Below, piece after piece: positions 42,623 through 50,102 of a DNA stretch of 64,000 nucleotides. The notes beneath the pieces are model-generated. The model made no database searches and was not told the DNA's origin. It saw only the letters and a program-made list of their open reading frames with translations. This stretch comes from Microbacterium sp. Leaf151 (GTDB lineage: Bacteria; Actinomycetota; Actinomycetes; Actinomycetales; Microbacteriaceae): positions 434,001 to 498,000 of the forward strand of contig NZ_LMOR01000002.1 in assembly GCF_001424225.1 (NCBI RefSeq), written 5' to 3'. The position numbers and the translations under genes were made by a program. Position 1 is the first letter of the stretch, and every line of letters starts with the position of its first letter.

Positions 42623-43947
<1,325 letters not shown>

Positions 43948-43951
<4 letters not shown>

Positions 43952-44846: not shown

Positions 44847-45869
44847 TCAGAAACCGATAGCGGCCTGGTAGCGCGGCTTGTGACCGGTGCGGATACCGGT
44901 GACGCTCGGCTTGTTCTCGTAGACACCGGCGCCCCAGTTGCCCTCGACGAGCACGGGGCCGTCGGGGCCGACGACGATGTCCCAGCCGACGTACTGCACC
45001 TGCGGCACGACGCGCGCGACCTGATCGACGAACGCCTTGACCTCTTCGATCAGCGGAAGCTGGAAGTCGGCGATGCGGACACCCGAATCGGGGTGCAGCT
45101 CGTGCACGTGCCCGTGGGAGTCGTACCCGGCCCCGAGCGCGCGACCGTCGTCATCGAGCATCGTGTAGAAGCCGCCGAACGTCATCTGGTCACTGACAGC
45201 GCCGCGGCCGAACTTCTGGGCCATCGCGAGGATGTGCGTCGTCTCTCCGTCGAAGAACGCGGTGACGCGCGTGGTGTTCACGGTGCCGGGGCAGACCGCG
45301 GCAAGGTCGTCGTGCTGACGGATGACCTCCTCGACGAGGATCTCGCCGCGTTCGAGCAGACCGCGGTGGAAGGCGTCCCAGTCGGCGACCTCGGCCGCGT
45401 GGTATCGGTGCACACCGGTTCCCGCCTGGCCGACGGGCTCCTTCGTGACGACGGTGCCCAGACGCTCGGCGAAGGCGCGCAGCTCGTCGGCGTTGTGGGC
45501 ATCGACCACCATCCACTCGCGGCGGAGGAACTCGCTGAAACGCCGGTCGAAGGCGACCTTGTCCTGGAAGATGCCGCGGAAGTCGGGGTGGTCGTACTTC
45601 TGCGAAATCTGGTTCGACACCGGGTGCGTCATGTACGTCGCGCGCTCGGCCGGGGTGAGGATCGCGAAGTCGTAGTCGATGTAGTCCTGGAACCCGACGT
45701 TCTTCACGCCCGCCTGGAAGAGCATGTCGCCGACGACGAGCGGCAGCGATTTGCCGTGCTGCGCCGAGGCCTCTTTGGCCCGTTCGATCACCGAGCCCAC
45801 GTCGATGCGGCGGGCACGTCCGGCGAGGTAGCGCAGACGGGTGACGGGGGAGAAGCCGTGGGTAGGCAT
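44847..45869 (-). CDS. Sugar-transfer-associated ATP-grasp protein
   Basis: A 340-residue protein of the ATP-grasp superfamily resembling ATPgrasp_ST. The ATP-binding region includes VTKEPVGQAGTGVHRY and ILVEEVIRQHDDLAAVCPGT, and the metal-binding end reads YVGWDIVVGPDGPVLVEGN. The N-terminal 100 residues (YDFAILTPAERATYMTHPVS) match the family lead domain. Members are often in cell-envelope polysaccharide loci. The divergent neighbours are alanine racemase-like genes, which fits a cell-wall role, perhaps joining an amino acid or peptide. Substrates are unknown. ATG 45869 is used; GGAGCG lies upstream. Confidence 0.78.
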   Translation of the reverse strand: MPTHGFSPVTRLRYLAGRARRIDVGSVIERAKEASAQHGKSLPLVVGDMLFQAGVKNVGFQDYIDYDFAILTPAERATYMTHPVSNQISQKYDHPDFRGIFQDKVAFDRRFSEFLRREWMVVDAHNADELRAFAERLGTVVTKEPVGQAGTGVHRYHAAEVADWDAFHRGLLERGEILVEEVIRQHDDLAAVCPGTVNTTRVTAFFDGETTHILAMAQKFGRGAVSDQMTFGGFYTMLDDDGRALGAGYDSHGHVHELHPDSGVRIADFQLPLIEEVKAFVDQVARVVPQVQYVGWDIVVGPDGPVLVEGNWGAGVYENKPSVTGIRTGHKPRYQAAIGF

Positions 45870-45902
45870 GCACGCTCCGGGGTCGGGGACGACGGACCCC
45901 GT

Positions 45903-45914: not shown

Positions 45915-46550
45915 GTGACCTCCACGCTCCCTGCCCGCGCGCCCGGGGCCGGGACAGTGGCGCCGGTAGCCCTCGTTTCGGAGGCCGCGCTGCGCCGGAA
46001 CGCCGGGCGGGCCGTGGGCGGTCGCGACGACGTGCTGACAGCGGACGGGTGGGGCCACGGCGCCGAATGGGTGGCATCCGTGCTCGCCGATCTCGGGCTG
46101 GATGCCGCGGCCCTCGACGCCGCGGTCCTGTACGGCCTCCCGGGTTCCGCCACCACGCCCGTCCTGTCGCTGCGCGGGCGCGCCCTGGGCACCAAGCCGC
46201 TGCTGCGGGGCGAGGGCGTCTCGTACGGCTACACCCACCGCGCGCCCGCCGACACGAACGTGGCGCTCGTCACGGGCGGATACGCGCAGGGCGTCGTGCG
46301 CTCCCTCGGCAACGTGGCCACCGTGGCCATCGAGGGGTGTCGCCACCCGATCGTCGGTCGCGTGGCGATGGACGTCTGCGTCGTCGACGTCGGCGGCACC
46401 CCGATCCCGCGCGGCACCGAAGTCGTCTTCTTCGGCGATCCGGCCGCCGGTCACCCCTCCCTCGCGGAGTGGATGGATGCCACGGGCTGGAGCGCAGCCG
46501 AGATCGTCGCCGCCGTGGGCGCGCGGTCCGACCGCCGGGTGTCCGCGTGA
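45915..46550 (+). CDS. Alanine racemase C-terminal-domain protein with PLP lysine lost
   Basis: A 211-residue protein. Residues 82-205 are an alanine racemase C-terminal beta domain: VLSLRGRALGTKPLLRGEGV, SYGYTHRAPADT, then GGYAQGVVR holding the catalytic tyrosine (Tyr123), and GRVAMDVCVVDVG. Residues 15-60 look like a shortened N-terminal domain: VLTADGWGHGAEWVA aligns with the PLP motif VVKADAYGHGA, but Lys is replaced by Thr42, and most of the barrel is missing. Alone it cannot bind PLP as an aldimine. Its stop overlaps the start of the next gene by 4 bases, indicating a complex with that protein. Confidence 0.85.
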   Translation: MTSTLPARAPGAGTVAPVALVSEAALRRNAGRAVGGRDDVLTADGWGHGAEWVASVLADLGLDAAALDAAVLYGLPGSATTPVLSLRGRALGTKPLLRGEGVSYGYTHRAPADTNVALVTGGYAQGVVRSLGNVATVAIEGCRHPIVGRVAMDVCVVDVGGTPIPRGTEVVFFGDPAAGHPSLAEWMDATGWSAAEIVAAVGARSDRRVSA

Positions 46551-47578
46551 GCGCGGTCTACCGCGTCGATCTCGACGCCTTCGCACGCAACCTCCGCCGC
46601 GTGCGCGCGGCCGTGGCGCCTGCCGCGCACATGCTGGTCGTCAAGGACGACGCGTACGCCCACGGGCTCGATGCGCTCGTGCGCCGGGCGTGGGATGAGG
46701 GCGTCCGCTGGTTCGGCGCCTTCGACGTCGCCACCGGAGGCGCGGTGCGCGCGGCGGTCGGCCCCGAAGCCCGCATCTTCGTCTGGCTCATCGGCGGATT
46801 CGACGACCTCGCGGCCGGGGTGGCCGCCGACCTCGACCTCGGCATCGGCGACGAAGCGCTGCTCGACGACCTCGCCACTCTCACCGGGGGCCCGGCCCGC
46901 GTGCACCTCAAGATCGACACCGGCCTCCACCGCAACGGCATCCGTCCCGAGCAGTGGGACAGCGCCCTCGCACGGACCTCCGTTCTCGTCGCCGACGGTC
47001 GAGCGGTCTTCGAGGGGATCTGGTCGCACATCTCCGAAGCCTCGGATGCCGACGACGACGACGCCAGAGCGCTGTTCCTGGCCGCGCGCGACGCGGCGCG
47101 CGCCGCGGGCCTTCACCCACGCTTCTCCCATTTGGCCGCCAGCGCCGCCGGCTTCGCCCGCGGGGAGTTCCGCGAAGACCTCGTGCGGGTCGGGGCGTTC
47201 TCGTACGGCATCCGGCCCGCCGGAGGCCCCGGCGAAACCGAGCTGGGCATCGAACCCGTCGCCGCCCTGGTCGCAACCGTGAACGCCATCGACCCGGCGG
47301 GCGTGCACCTCGACGTGGGCAGTCTGCACGGCCTGCCGAGCACCCTCTCCGGGCACTTCGACGTCGCCACCCCTGCGGGCCCCCGCCGCGTCGAGGACAT
47401 CGGTGCGACCGAGACCGTCGTCGCGCCGTGGGACGATGCCCGAACGGGCGACGAGATCGTCGTCTTCGGTCGAGGGGCGCTGTACAGTGCGACCGATCTC
47501 GCGGAGATCATCGACACCATCGGCGAGGAGATCGCGTTGCGCGTGTCGCCCTCGCTCCCTCGCGTCTACACGGCGTGA
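46547..47578 (+). CDS. alr: Alanine racemase, PLP subunit with degenerate C-terminal domain
   Basis: The 343-residue protein keeps the PLP barrel: Lys33 in MLVVKDDAYAHG, KIDTGLHRNGIRPEQW with Arg129, WSHISEASDAD, and RVGAFSYGIRPAGG. It ends with the family's SPSLPRVYT. In the C-terminal domain the catalytic GYADG becomes GSLHG (258-262), so the second catalytic base, Tyr, is replaced by Ser259. In canonical enzymes that Tyr comes from the partner subunit, here supplied by the upstream gene. GTG or ATG overlap at 46547 couples the two. It should interconvert L- and D-alanine, or a related amino acid, for peptidoglycan. Confidence 0.87.
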   Translation: MSAVYRVDLDAFARNLRRVRAAVAPAAHMLVVKDDAYAHGLDALVRRAWDEGVRWFGAFDVATGGAVRAAVGPEARIFVWLIGGFDDLAAGVAADLDLGIGDEALLDDLATLTGGPARVHLKIDTGLHRNGIRPEQWDSALARTSVLVADGRAVFEGIWSHISEASDADDDDARALFLAARDAARAAGLHPRFSHLAASAAGFARGEFREDLVRVGAFSYGIRPAGGPGETELGIEPVAALVATVNAIDPAGVHLDVGSLHGLPSTLSGHFDVATPAGPRRVEDIGATETVVAPWDDARTGDEIVVFGRGALYSATDLAEIIDTIGEEIALRVSPSLPRVYTA

Positions 47579-47648: not shown

Positions 47649-47867
47649 TCAGTCGGCGGACGAGAGGCGCGCGGTCTCGTCGTGCCACGACGTGGCGATG
47701 CTGCGCAGCTTCTCTTCGTACTTGCGTCCGTGGTGCGCGCAGAACAGCAATTCGCTGCCGTTGACCTCGGCGGCGATGTATGCCTGCGCGCCGCAGGAGT
47801 CGCAGCGATCCGCCGCCGTCAGACGGTGGTCGAGAACAATCGCGTCGGGTGCGGTCGTGGTGGTCAT
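47649..47867 (-). CDS. DUF7455 small zinc-ribbon-like protein
   Basis: This 72-residue protein starts TTTTAPDAIVLDHRLTAADR and carries CDSCGAQAYIAAEVNGSELL followed by FCAHHGRKYE. The C-x2-C and C-x2-H pairs are a likely zinc site. Such proteins are conserved in actinobacteria, usually close to parE/gyrB or sigma factor genes, as here. ATG 47867 is preceded by GAGGG. Its function is unknown; it is cytosolic and too small to hold more than one domain. Confidence 0.88.
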   Translation of the reverse strand: MTTTTAPDAIVLDHRLTAADRCDSCGAQAYIAAEVNGSELLFCAHHGRKYEEKLRSIATSWHDETARLSSAD

Positions 47868-48018
47868 CTCGGGTGCCCTCCTCATGTGGTCGTGGGCGAG
47901 TCTCCATATACAACCACGCGGATGTTTCCCCTATGCCGCGCCTTGATCACATTTCGCTGTGCGCGTACGGCGACCCCACCTCGCTGTGTGTCTGCCAGGC
48001 GATGTCGGTGGCCCCGAT

Positions 48019-48032: not shown

Positions 48033-50102
48033 GTGACGTCCGAGTACTCCGCCCACCACCTGCAGGTCCTCGAGGGCCTCGAAGCCGTGCGCAAGCGCCC
48101 CGGAATGTACATCGGCTCCACCGACTCCCGCGGTCTCATGCACTGCCTCTGGGAGATCATCGACAACTCCGTCGATGAAGCCCTCGCCGGGCACGGCACC
48201 CGCATCGACATCGTGCTGCACGCCGACGGCAGCGTCGAGGTGCGCGACCGCGCGCGCGGCATCCCCGTCGACGTCGAACCGCGCACCGGTCTGACCGGTG
48301 TCGAGGTGGTCTTCACCAAGCTCCATGCCGGGGGAAAGTTCGGTGGCGGCTCGTACGCGGCATCCGGTGGTCTGCACGGTGTCGGCGCGTCGGTCGTCAA
48401 CGCCCTGTCGGAACGCCTCGACGTCGAGGTCGACCGCGGCGGCAAGACCTACGCGATGTCGTTCCATCGCGGTGAGCCCGGGCTCTTCGCCGGAGACGGC
48501 CCCGACGCACCCTTCACGCCGTTCGAGCGCAGCAGCGAGCTGCGGGTCGTGGGCAAGGCGCCGCGCGGTGTCACGGGCACGCGCATCCGGTACTGGGCCG
48601 ACCGGCAGATCTTCACGAAGGACGCAGCCTTCGGCCACGACGAACTCGTGCAGCGCGTTCGCCAGACGGCGTTCCTCGTGCCCGGGCTCGAGCTCGTGGT
48701 GTTCGACGAGCGCGCGGAAGAACCGGTCGAGACGAGCTACCGCTTCGACGGGGGCATCTCGGAGTTCGCGGAGTTCCTCGCCCCCGATGCCGCGGTCACC
48801 GACACCTGGCGCCTGAACGGCACCGGAACGTTCACCGAGACCGTTCCGGTGCTGCAACCCGGCGGGTCGATGATTCCCACCGAGGTTCAGCGCGAGTGCG
48901 AGGTCGACATCGCGGTGCGCTGGGGGACCGGCTACGACACCACCTCACGCTCCTTCGTCAACATCATCGCCACGCCCAAGGGCGGGACCCACCAGCAGGG
49001 CTTCGAGCTGGGTCTGATGAAGGTGCTGCGCACGCAGGTGGAGCAGAATGCCCGCAAGCTCAAGGTGGGAGGCGACAAGGTCGAGAAAGACGACCTGCTC
49101 GCCGGTCTCACCGCGGTGTTGACCGTACGCTTGCCCGAGCCGCAGTTCGAGGGGCAGACCAAAGAGGTGCTGGGCACCCCCGCGGTACGCCAGATCGTGG
49201 CCTCCGTCGTCCAGAAAGAATTGGCGGAGCGATTCGCCTCACCCAAGCGCGACGACAAGGCGCAGACCGCGCAGTTGCTCGAGAAGATCGTGTCCGAGAT
49301 GAAGGCGCGCATCTCGGCCCGCACGCACAAAGAGACGCAGCGTCGTAAGAACGCGCTCGAGTCGTCGTCGCTGCCGTCGAAGCTCGTCGACTGCCGCTCG
49401 AACGACGTCGACAACTCCGAACTGTTCATCGTCGAGGGAAACTCCGCCCTCGGCACCGCGCGCGATGCACGCAACAGCGAATATCAGGCGCTGCTGCCCA
49501 TCCGCGGCAAGATCCTCAACACGCAGAAAGCGTCGATCAGCGACATGCTGTCGAATGCGGAGTGCGCCTCGATCATCCAGGTCATCGGGGCCGGGTCGGG
49601 TCGGTCCTTCGACCTCAGTGCCGCCCGCTACGGCAAGATCATCCTCATGAGCGACGCCGACGTCGACGGTGCGCACATCCGCACCCTGCTGCTGACGTTG
49701 TTCTTCCGCTACATGCGCCCTCTGGTGGAGGCCGGGCGGGTCTTCGCGGCCGTACCGCCGCTGCACCGCGTCATCGTGATCAACCCGGGCTCCAAGCCCA
49801 ACGAGACGATCTACACGTATAGCGAGCAGGAGCTGCACACACTGCTCGCGCGCCTCAAGAAGTCGAACAAGCGCTGGCAAGAGCCCATCCAGCGCTACAA
49901 GGGCCTCGGCGAGATGGATGCCGACCAGCTCGCGACCACCACCATGGACCGCGCCGGCCGTACGCTCCGTCGCGTCCGAGTGAAGGACATGGAGGGCGCA
50001 GCCCAGGTGTTCGACCTGTTGATGGGCAGCGAGGTCGCGCCGCGCCGCGAGTTCATCGTGCATTCCAGCGACCGGTTGGCCCGCGAGAGCATCGACGTCT
50101 GA
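48033..50102 (+). CDS. parE: Type IIA topoisomerase subunit B (ParE/GyrB type)
   Basis: A 689-residue ATPase subunit. The GHKL site reads VRKRPGMYIGSTDSRGLMH and IIDNSVDEALAGHG, the ATP lid GGLHGVGASVVNALSERL, and the TOPRIM domain ELFIVEGNSALGTARDARNS and MSDADVDGAHIRTLLLT, with the acidic metal site. Its partner is the GyrA/ParC-type protein encoded convergently at 50256-52721. Because gyrBA normally sits near dnaA, this second pair is probably topoisomerase IV, which separates daughter chromosomes. ParE versus GyrB is inferred from context; related actinobacterial genes are often labelled gyrB-like. Confidence 0.88.
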   Translation: MTSEYSAHHLQVLEGLEAVRKRPGMYIGSTDSRGLMHCLWEIIDNSVDEALAGHGTRIDIVLHADGSVEVRDRARGIPVDVEPRTGLTGVEVVFTKLHAGGKFGGGSYAASGGLHGVGASVVNALSERLDVEVDRGGKTYAMSFHRGEPGLFAGDGPDAPFTPFERSSELRVVGKAPRGVTGTRIRYWADRQIFTKDAAFGHDELVQRVRQTAFLVPGLELVVFDERAEEPVETSYRFDGGISEFAEFLAPDAAVTDTWRLNGTGTFTETVPVLQPGGSMIPTEVQRECEVDIAVRWGTGYDTTSRSFVNIIATPKGGTHQQGFELGLMKVLRTQVEQNARKLKVGGDKVEKDDLLAGLTAVLTVRLPEPQFEGQTKEVLGTPAVRQIVASVVQKELAERFASPKRDDKAQTAQLLEKIVSEMKARISARTHKETQRRKNALESSSLPSKLVDCRSNDVDNSELFIVEGNSALGTARDARNSEYQALLPIRGKILNTQKASISDMLSNAECASIIQVIGAGSGRSFDLSAARYGKIILMSDADVDGAHIRTLLLTLFFRYMRPLVEAGRVFAAVPPLHRVIVINPGSKPNETIYTYSEQELHTLLARLKKSNKRWQEPIQRYKGLGEMDADQLATTTMDRAGRTLRRVRVKDMEGAAQVFDLLMGSEVAPRREFIVHSSDRLARESIDV

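Follow-up and report, generated by a model that had tools for sequence, protein, structure and literature searches.

Alanine racemase (Alr) is a textbook homodimer and a drug target. According to the parts of two papers available to us, the Lys39 and the Tyr265 of each active site belong to different subunits, and the substrate carboxylate contacts Met312′ (PMC3485190, PMC3245724; residue numbers here and below are those of the G. stearothermophilus enzyme, mapped through conserved motifs). Position 354, a Tyr in Alr, is described as a specificity gate that is Thr in lysine racemase (Lyr) and Ala in broad racemase (Bar), enzymes with a wider pocket and basic substrates (PMC3485190, likewise from the part available). 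The Tyr blocks larger side chains in Alr, and in the T. tengcongensis enzyme charged residues at this position lowered alanine activity. We found no description of a heterodimeric or split racemase of the Alr fold in the literature searched, which was covered in part.

The window analysed here, a stretch of 64,000 nucleotides from Microbacterium sp. Leaf151 (contig 2, bases 434001-498000), contains two overlapping genes that divide an Alr between them. Gene 1 (45915..46550, + strand, GTG start, 211 aa) encodes the C-terminal domain with a remnant of the barrel start and is the Tyr-bearing partner, and gene 2 (46547..47578, + strand, GTG start, 343 aa) encodes the full barrel and carries the lysine that binds pyridoxal phosphate (PLP). 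The stop of the first and the start of the second share the four bases GTGA (46547..46550, +), an arrangement that suggests translational coupling; the identical overlap occurs in 21 of the 30 best loci of the family, the window's own among them, with start codons assigned by script. Gene 1 matches only Ala_racemase_C in Pfam (PF00842, E 5e-29). Gene 2 matches the whole of Ala_racemase_N (PF01168; 1-220 of 220) and, under the cut-off of the latter model, positions 79-127 of the 127 of Ala_racemase_C, the active-site loop of its C-terminal domain being missing. Both Pfam domains of the fold type III PLP racemases to which Alr belongs are therefore present, but on separate chains, and each chain misses the TIGR00492 equivalog cut-off for Alr (168 bits) with scores of 85.3 bits for gene 1 and 106.3 bits for gene 2. 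By alignment, gene 1 has Thr42 (VLTADGWGHG; 46038..46040, +) at the position of Lys39 and Tyr123 (GGYAQG; 46281..46283, +) at that of the catalytic Tyr265; its Met152 (46368..46370, +) corresponds to Met312, the substrate carboxylate contact (PMC3245724, available in part). Gene 2 has Lys33 (KDDAYAHG; 46643..46645, +) as the PLP lysine, Ser259 (GSLHG; 47321..47323, +) in place of Tyr265, and Glu327 (47525..47527, +) at the specificity position 354; Met312 and a loop of about 17 residues bearing the SYG motif are also gone. An earlier sequence-only reading had named Thr42, Tyr123, Lys33 and Ser259 with their motifs, and had described two overlapping genes with complementary losses, the first an Alr C-terminal domain from which most of the barrel is missing; the alignment and Pfam results agree with that description throughout.

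To place these losses among relatives, 82 distinct gene-1 and 81 distinct gene-2 proteins, comprising all those extracted from alignments A1, A2, A4 and A5 together with loci L038-L067, were aligned to the canonical Alr of the same genome. The division of the active site was near perfect, with the PLP lysine, the loop, the catalytic Tyr and Met312, which an Alr holds in one chain, distributed over two in all 82 and 81 sequences. No gene-1 protein has Lys at position 39: the residue is Arg in 51, Ala in 16, Thr in two and one of five other letters once each, and it is unreadable in eight, namely four from genus g73, where this part is lost, and four in which the start chosen is too short or the motif absent. 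The other barrel residues are deleted from gene 1, which retains the SYG tyrosine (82/82), Tyr265 (80/82), Met312 (82/82) and Asp313 (81/82). Conversely, Lys39, Tyr43, Lys129, Arg136, His166, Ser204 and Arg219 are each kept by all 81 gene-2 proteins, from every one of which the SYG loop has been deleted and Met312 lost. Whereas these two losses are universal among the gene-2 proteins aligned, those of Tyr265 and Asp313 are not, since six keep the Tyr (L049, L055, L056, L059, L063 and L064, all without the loop) and 23 have Asp at 313. The two gene-1 proteins that lack Tyr265 (L050 and L067) read GFADG, and their gene-2 partners also have Phe there, so that the Tyr is on neither chain; the same was seen in L226, where gene 1 again reads GFADG, and the rest of the partition is kept at all three loci. 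In genus g73 the start of the gene-1 barrel is lost and its end kept, the reverse of the other genera, and the barrel has thus decayed in more than one way while the C-terminal domain stayed.

The two genes also travel together. Each was used as a query against 366 genomes of the genus, with presence counted by eye from the tables: 296 genomes have both genes and 64, some of them incomplete, have neither, while three have gene 1 with a weak gene 2 (G106, G261, G305; 68-76% complete) and three have gene 2 with a borderline gene 1 (G296, G297, G344). Co-conservation of this kind was one of the checks proposed by the sequence-only reading, and its suggestion that related Microbacteriaceae might contain the same pair also proved right. 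A gene-1 open reading frame directly precedes gene 2 in all 30 of the best family loci (window's own included) from 398 genomes searched, and counting further regions and loci we read the adjacent pair in 20 genera; the highest gene-2 score among named genomes was that of M. proteolyticum. Outside the family, ten loci among L278-L290 look like single canonical-type chains (L279, L284 and L287 in this range belong to the window's family), as do the seven loci L031-L037; these come from part of 297 order-level genomes, and in several of the loci the script used to find motifs failed to pick up the lysine or the loop. Across six genomes dN/dS was 0.25-0.37 for gene 1 and 0.11-0.32 for gene 2, indicating purifying selection on both. 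Given these values and the recurrence of the pattern in 82 and 81 distinct sequences, the pair is neither a chance arrangement nor a pseudogene.

Structure prediction for the single chains (AlphaFold2) gave a mean pLDDT of 93.7 for gene 2, whose fold matches the S. lavendulae Alr (1vfs) with a TM-score of 0.92. Gene 1 reached a mean of 85.7, and its best matches in the PDB are also Alr, with a TM-score of 0.61 over gene 1 for the M. tuberculosis enzyme. Its disordered first ten residues score 48, and after these the weakest block is the one bearing Tyr123 (pLDDT 58), as for a loop that is missing its partner in the model.

Because Lys39 and Tyr265 come from different subunits in Alr, a dimer of the two proteins would have one site whole and the other empty. 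The partners co-occur, lie side by side and have lost complementary parts, and we infer that they form a physical complex; that this is an obligate heterodimer of the Alr fold with a single composite active site is well supported by sequence comparison, and the pair very probably works as one enzyme. In such a complex, the gene-2 barrel would bind PLP on Lys33, and the gene-1 C-terminal domain would cross the dimer interface, contributing the SYG loop together with Tyr123 and Met152. The other site of the dimer, related to the first by symmetry, would be dead, with almost no barrel and no lysine from gene 1 and, from gene 2, a C-terminal domain lacking the loop, the Met and mostly the Tyr. The sequence-only reading had proposed this obligate heterodimer with one active site as an alanine racemase; complementary loss, co-occurrence, adjacency in 20 genera and natural fusions (described below) support the architecture, and it is the assignment to alanine that has not fared well.

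Evidence on the substrate comes in the first instance from position 354, which in the aligned gene-2 proteins is Glu in 70 and Asp in 11 and Tyr in none. The gate residue of Alr is thus replaced, as it is in Lyr and Bar, by an acid rather than by Thr or Ala. An acidic residue here would suit a basic side chain, and it could also weaken binding of the PLP phosphate. Together with the position of the pair in an island of peptidoglycan-modification genes, this replacement makes a diamino-acid racemase the most likely job. The substrate would be a basic diamino acid: L-ornithine, converted to D-ornithine, in this Microbacterium, and perhaps diaminobutyrate or lysine in other genera. The putative ATP-grasp ligase encoded next to the pair would then attach the product to the bridge of B-type peptidoglycan. 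We regard a role as racemase for the basic diamino acid of the wall as probable, with clear room for doubt, and we lean to a similar degree towards the explanation as a whole, in which an obligate heterodimer with a composite site serves as diamino-acid racemase for the B-type wall.

The island is bordered on the left by the gene for the sigma factor RpoD/SigA (42623..43951, +; assigned by Pfam on the ortholog at L068:12161-13570) and on the right by that for a topoisomerase subunit B (48063..50102, +; start codon approximate), which we take to be ParE. Following the sigma factor gene is one for a CofE-like protein (PF01996; 43948..44646, +), which occupies the place held by MurT-GatD in most other genera examined, and next, divergent from the pair, a gene of the ATPgrasp_ST family (44847..45872, −), a candidate amino-acid ligase. 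We also noticed, by eye, a small protein with a CDSCGAQAY motif (about 47650-47870, −) between gene 2 and the topoisomerase gene, and similar small open reading frames in the same place at L074, L077 and L078. In 20 regions chosen from other genera, MurT-GatD lies beside the pair in 14, the CofE-like gene in four and neither in one, the remaining region (L087) being another locus; the names MurT and GatD come from Pfam and NCBIfam matches of one ortholog, the NCBIfam scores lying under the equivalog cut-offs. Among 20 further Microbacterium regions with the pair, five have MurT-GatD, 14 the CofE-like gene (13 of these with the ATP-grasp gene) and one neither. The CofE-like gene is present in 19 of 20 pair-less Microbacterium regions, drawn from 30 pair-less genomes, and ATP-grasp genes in these regions number two in a row in 13, one divergent in five and none in two. 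The tandem ATPgrasp_ST copies in those 13 regions (among L090-L108) stand at the place of the pair; genes of this family are candidate ligases for the bridge amino acid. Across the Microbacteriaceae regions that we read, the CofE-like gene, a member of the F420 ligase family, and MurT-GatD (L068 9543-11587) alternate at the place after rpoD, a pattern that might mean that each can carry out a reaction at the D-Glu carboxyl of peptidoglycan. One contig filed as Stenotrophomonas maltophilia (L134) carries a Microbacterium-type island of rpoD, CofE-like, ATP-grasp and topoisomerase genes, and is probably contamination.

We then compared the presence of the pair with reported wall types in named genomes, using a scan with the CofE-like protein from which 80 loci of at least 504 were taken (L206 and L207 are one genome). 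The pair is in the locus in 58, absent from 19, and at three the locus is cut or rearranged. A genome-wide search for gene 2 in 24 genomes recovered it in the three cut cases, in L205 and in four positive controls, and in the 16 pair-less genomes searched whole it returned only the weaker match that a canonical Alr gives. In total, gene 2 is present in the genomes of 62 of the 80 loci; the remaining 18 comprise the 16 whose whole genomes were searched and two (L131, M. arborescens, and L134) that are pair-less at the level of the locus. The pair-less genomes include M. radiodurans, M. saccharophilum, M. flavum, M. pullorum, M. oleivorans (two), M. lacticum, M. hominis and M. paulum, among others, in addition to M. 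arborescens at the locus. For M. flavum, M. hominis, M. lacticum and M. paulum the wall type is presumably L-lysine.

Wall types were found for few pair-less species, most having none in the literature searched, and those used were taken from the available parts of three papers (PMC10757982, PMC10978784, PMC9998209). On these reports, pair and wall type agree in seven of ten species: M. arborescens (L-Lys, no pair at the locus) and M. saccharophilum (Lys, no pair); M. testaceum and M. galbinum (D-Orn, pair); M. oxydans and M. maritypicum (pair; both are reference strains of a clade reported as D-Orn); and M. elymi (Orn), where the pair is there but broken in the assembly, as is the neighbouring topoisomerase gene. 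The island genes of M. elymi (L208), the topoisomerase gene included, are broken into several frames in a complete chromosome, which looks like sequencing error. The three conflicts are M. radiodurans (D-Orn, no pair), M. enclense (L-Lys, pair) and M. kunmingense (Lys, pair), the first two of which are listed as atypical for their clades in the part of PMC10757982 available. The same part places M. flavum, M. hominis, M. lacticum and M. paulum in one clade, outside the clades that it names as mixed. The pair-less species may form few lineages, and the correlation with wall type may therefore rest on few independent events.

The three conflicts with ornithine are among the reasons to consider that the heterodimer acts on something else, be it a different amino acid, a precursor (peptidyl or UDP-MurNAc-peptide) that it would epimerise, or a substrate of a one-base PLP reaction. 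An acidic residue at the gate and an island that can include MurT-GatD would fit such a role as well. However, the intact site keeps both racemase bases, Lys and Tyr, in all but two of the gene-1 sequences aligned, and the pair-less species include ones with L-lysine, and on balance we consider a different substrate or reaction unlikely.

A second alternative is that the pair is a heterodimeric isozyme of alanine racemase, sharing as it does the fold and most catalytic residues of Alr. The 3.6 Mb assembly has a complete canonical alr on contig 4, encoding 373 aa with VVKADGYGHG and GYADG in one chain and scoring 287.9 bits against TIGR00492. It is therefore unlikely that the pair is the organism's alanine racemase. 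The sequence-only reading had suggested looking for such a gene and held that finding it, together with a monomeric or separately functional second protein, would count against the heterodimer; the gene is there, but gene 2 does not look functional alone, and what is weakened is the alanine reading and not the heterodimer. Its remark that a non-alanine substrate was possible has become the better reading, in view of the canonical gene and the acidic residue at position 354. A search for other racemase candidates gave four Ala_racemase_N matches in the genome, namely the pair, the canonical Alr, a protein above the YggS/TIGR00044 cut-off and a partial match (29 bits, E 1.2e-6).

Relatives hold natural single-chain fusions of the two halves, and also a second class of divided Alr that bears on the isozyme reading from both sides. 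One locus (L217) is a single open frame of 832 codons with gene 1 followed by gene 2 and an alanine-rich joining stretch, and six others (L216, L218, L220, L228, L241, L244) are fusions in the reverse order, in which a barrel with the lysine and without Tyr265 precedes a C-terminal domain with the loop, the tyrosine and AMDQ (the second half of L228 is known as motifs only, from row L243). Fused proteins were classed by reading their sequences, as the motif script had counted them as canonical; it also labelled a few canonical rows as 'noloop' or as lacking the lysine. In genus g93 the second class, to which these reverse-order fusions belong, takes the form of two adjacent genes, barrel first (L087, L219, L223, L224, L235-L240), and the barrel protein retains GYGDG and lacks the loop. 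Tyr354 is retained by this split or fused class in all rows examined (as TINYE or TIGYE), and the canonical Alr proteins likewise have Tyr wherever the script returned a motif (for four it returned none; L029 was read by eye).

When 15 genomes were searched with the canonical Alr, every near-full-length match was split or fused in 11 of them (six of g93; G684, G611 and G761 of g89; G750 and G700 of g36), and a canonical Alr was found in the other four (G726, G505, G408, G434). In G761, which is 90% complete, the sole Alr-like protein found is a fusion of 701 codons. No D-amino-acid transaminase scored above the TIGR01121 cut-off in the 15 genomes, and weaker matches of this fold occur in 12; transamination is thus a possible way of obtaining D-alanine without racemisation. 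If D-alanine is made by racemisation in the genomes where we found no canonical Alr, a split or fused Alr must do it, and these genomes provide what we take as the best sign, at the level of sequence, that an Alr divided in this way can be catalytically competent. In the barrel tree, the acidic gene-2 barrels group in a single clade (SH-aLRT 96.8) and the split versions that keep Tyr354 fall elsewhere, while a single clade for all 52 split barrels was not rejected (AU test, p 0.318); the C-terminal domain tree resolves little. The first barrel tree included four gene-1 rows of g73, which formed a long branch and were removed with one duplicate row for the AU test.

That split or fused proteins with Tyr354 seem to be the only Alr of some genomes lends the isozyme reading some support, but all 11 genomes without a canonical Alr found have versions that keep this Tyr, 10 of them carrying the acidic version besides, and the acidic residue is invariant in the aligned gene-2 proteins. 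Along with the canonical alr of the window's own genome, this makes a second alanine racemase improbable. Even less credible, and in our judgement very unlikely, is that the proteins act apart, with gene 2 a homodimeric PLP enzyme and gene 1 a regulator or decaying fragment: gene 2 alone folds with high confidence and six of its relatives keep Tyr265, but co-occurrence, adjacency in 20 genera, natural fusions, purifying selection on gene 1 and its conservation of just those residues that would reach the partner's site all argue against it.

Returning to the composite diamino-acid racemase, the two equivalent sites of Alr appear to have been reduced to one through complementary loss, in a form legible in hundreds of genomes. 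Because several stages can be read, among them Arg in place of Lys, differing barrel deletions and fusion, the steps from a homodimer to an obligate heterodimer can be put to the test directly. Should the pair act on ornithine or diaminobutyrate, it would also provide a candidate enzyme behind the D-diamino acid of B-type peptidoglycan, a character by which these bacteria have long been classified; we found no paper in the literature searched that names this enzyme. A broader reading, to which we give an even chance, is that Microbacteriaceae have a 'half-site' racemase, a duplicated Alr that lost one active site, became heterodimeric and was put to use twice. It would serve as a new D-diamino-acid racemase that helps to set the chemistry of the B-type wall, and as the supply of D-alanine in some genomes of three genera without a canonical Alr found; in some it would have been re-fused into a single chain carrying one composite site.

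With canonical homodimeric Alr (TIGR00492; PDB 1vfs, 1xfc, 1bd0) the pair shares the fold, the PLP lysine, the cross-subunit Tyr and the catalytic residues of the barrel, and it differs in having Lys and Tyr on two genes, one chain nearly without a barrel, Glu or Asp at position 354 and, as proposed, one site per dimer instead of two. Serine palmitoyltransferase LCB1/LCB2 offers a parallel as a PLP heterodimer of paralogous subunits, one of them without the PLP lysine, although it belongs to fold type I. The serine racemase VanT (PDB 4ecl) has the Alr fold and acts on a non-alanine substrate for wall precursors, but is membrane-fused and is not known to show complementary loss. Lyr and Bar (PDB 4dza, 4dyj) have the Alr fold with Tyr354 replaced, as in the pair, and, in the part of PMC3485190 available, are homodimers with two sites and Thr or Ala at the position where the pair carries Glu or Asp.
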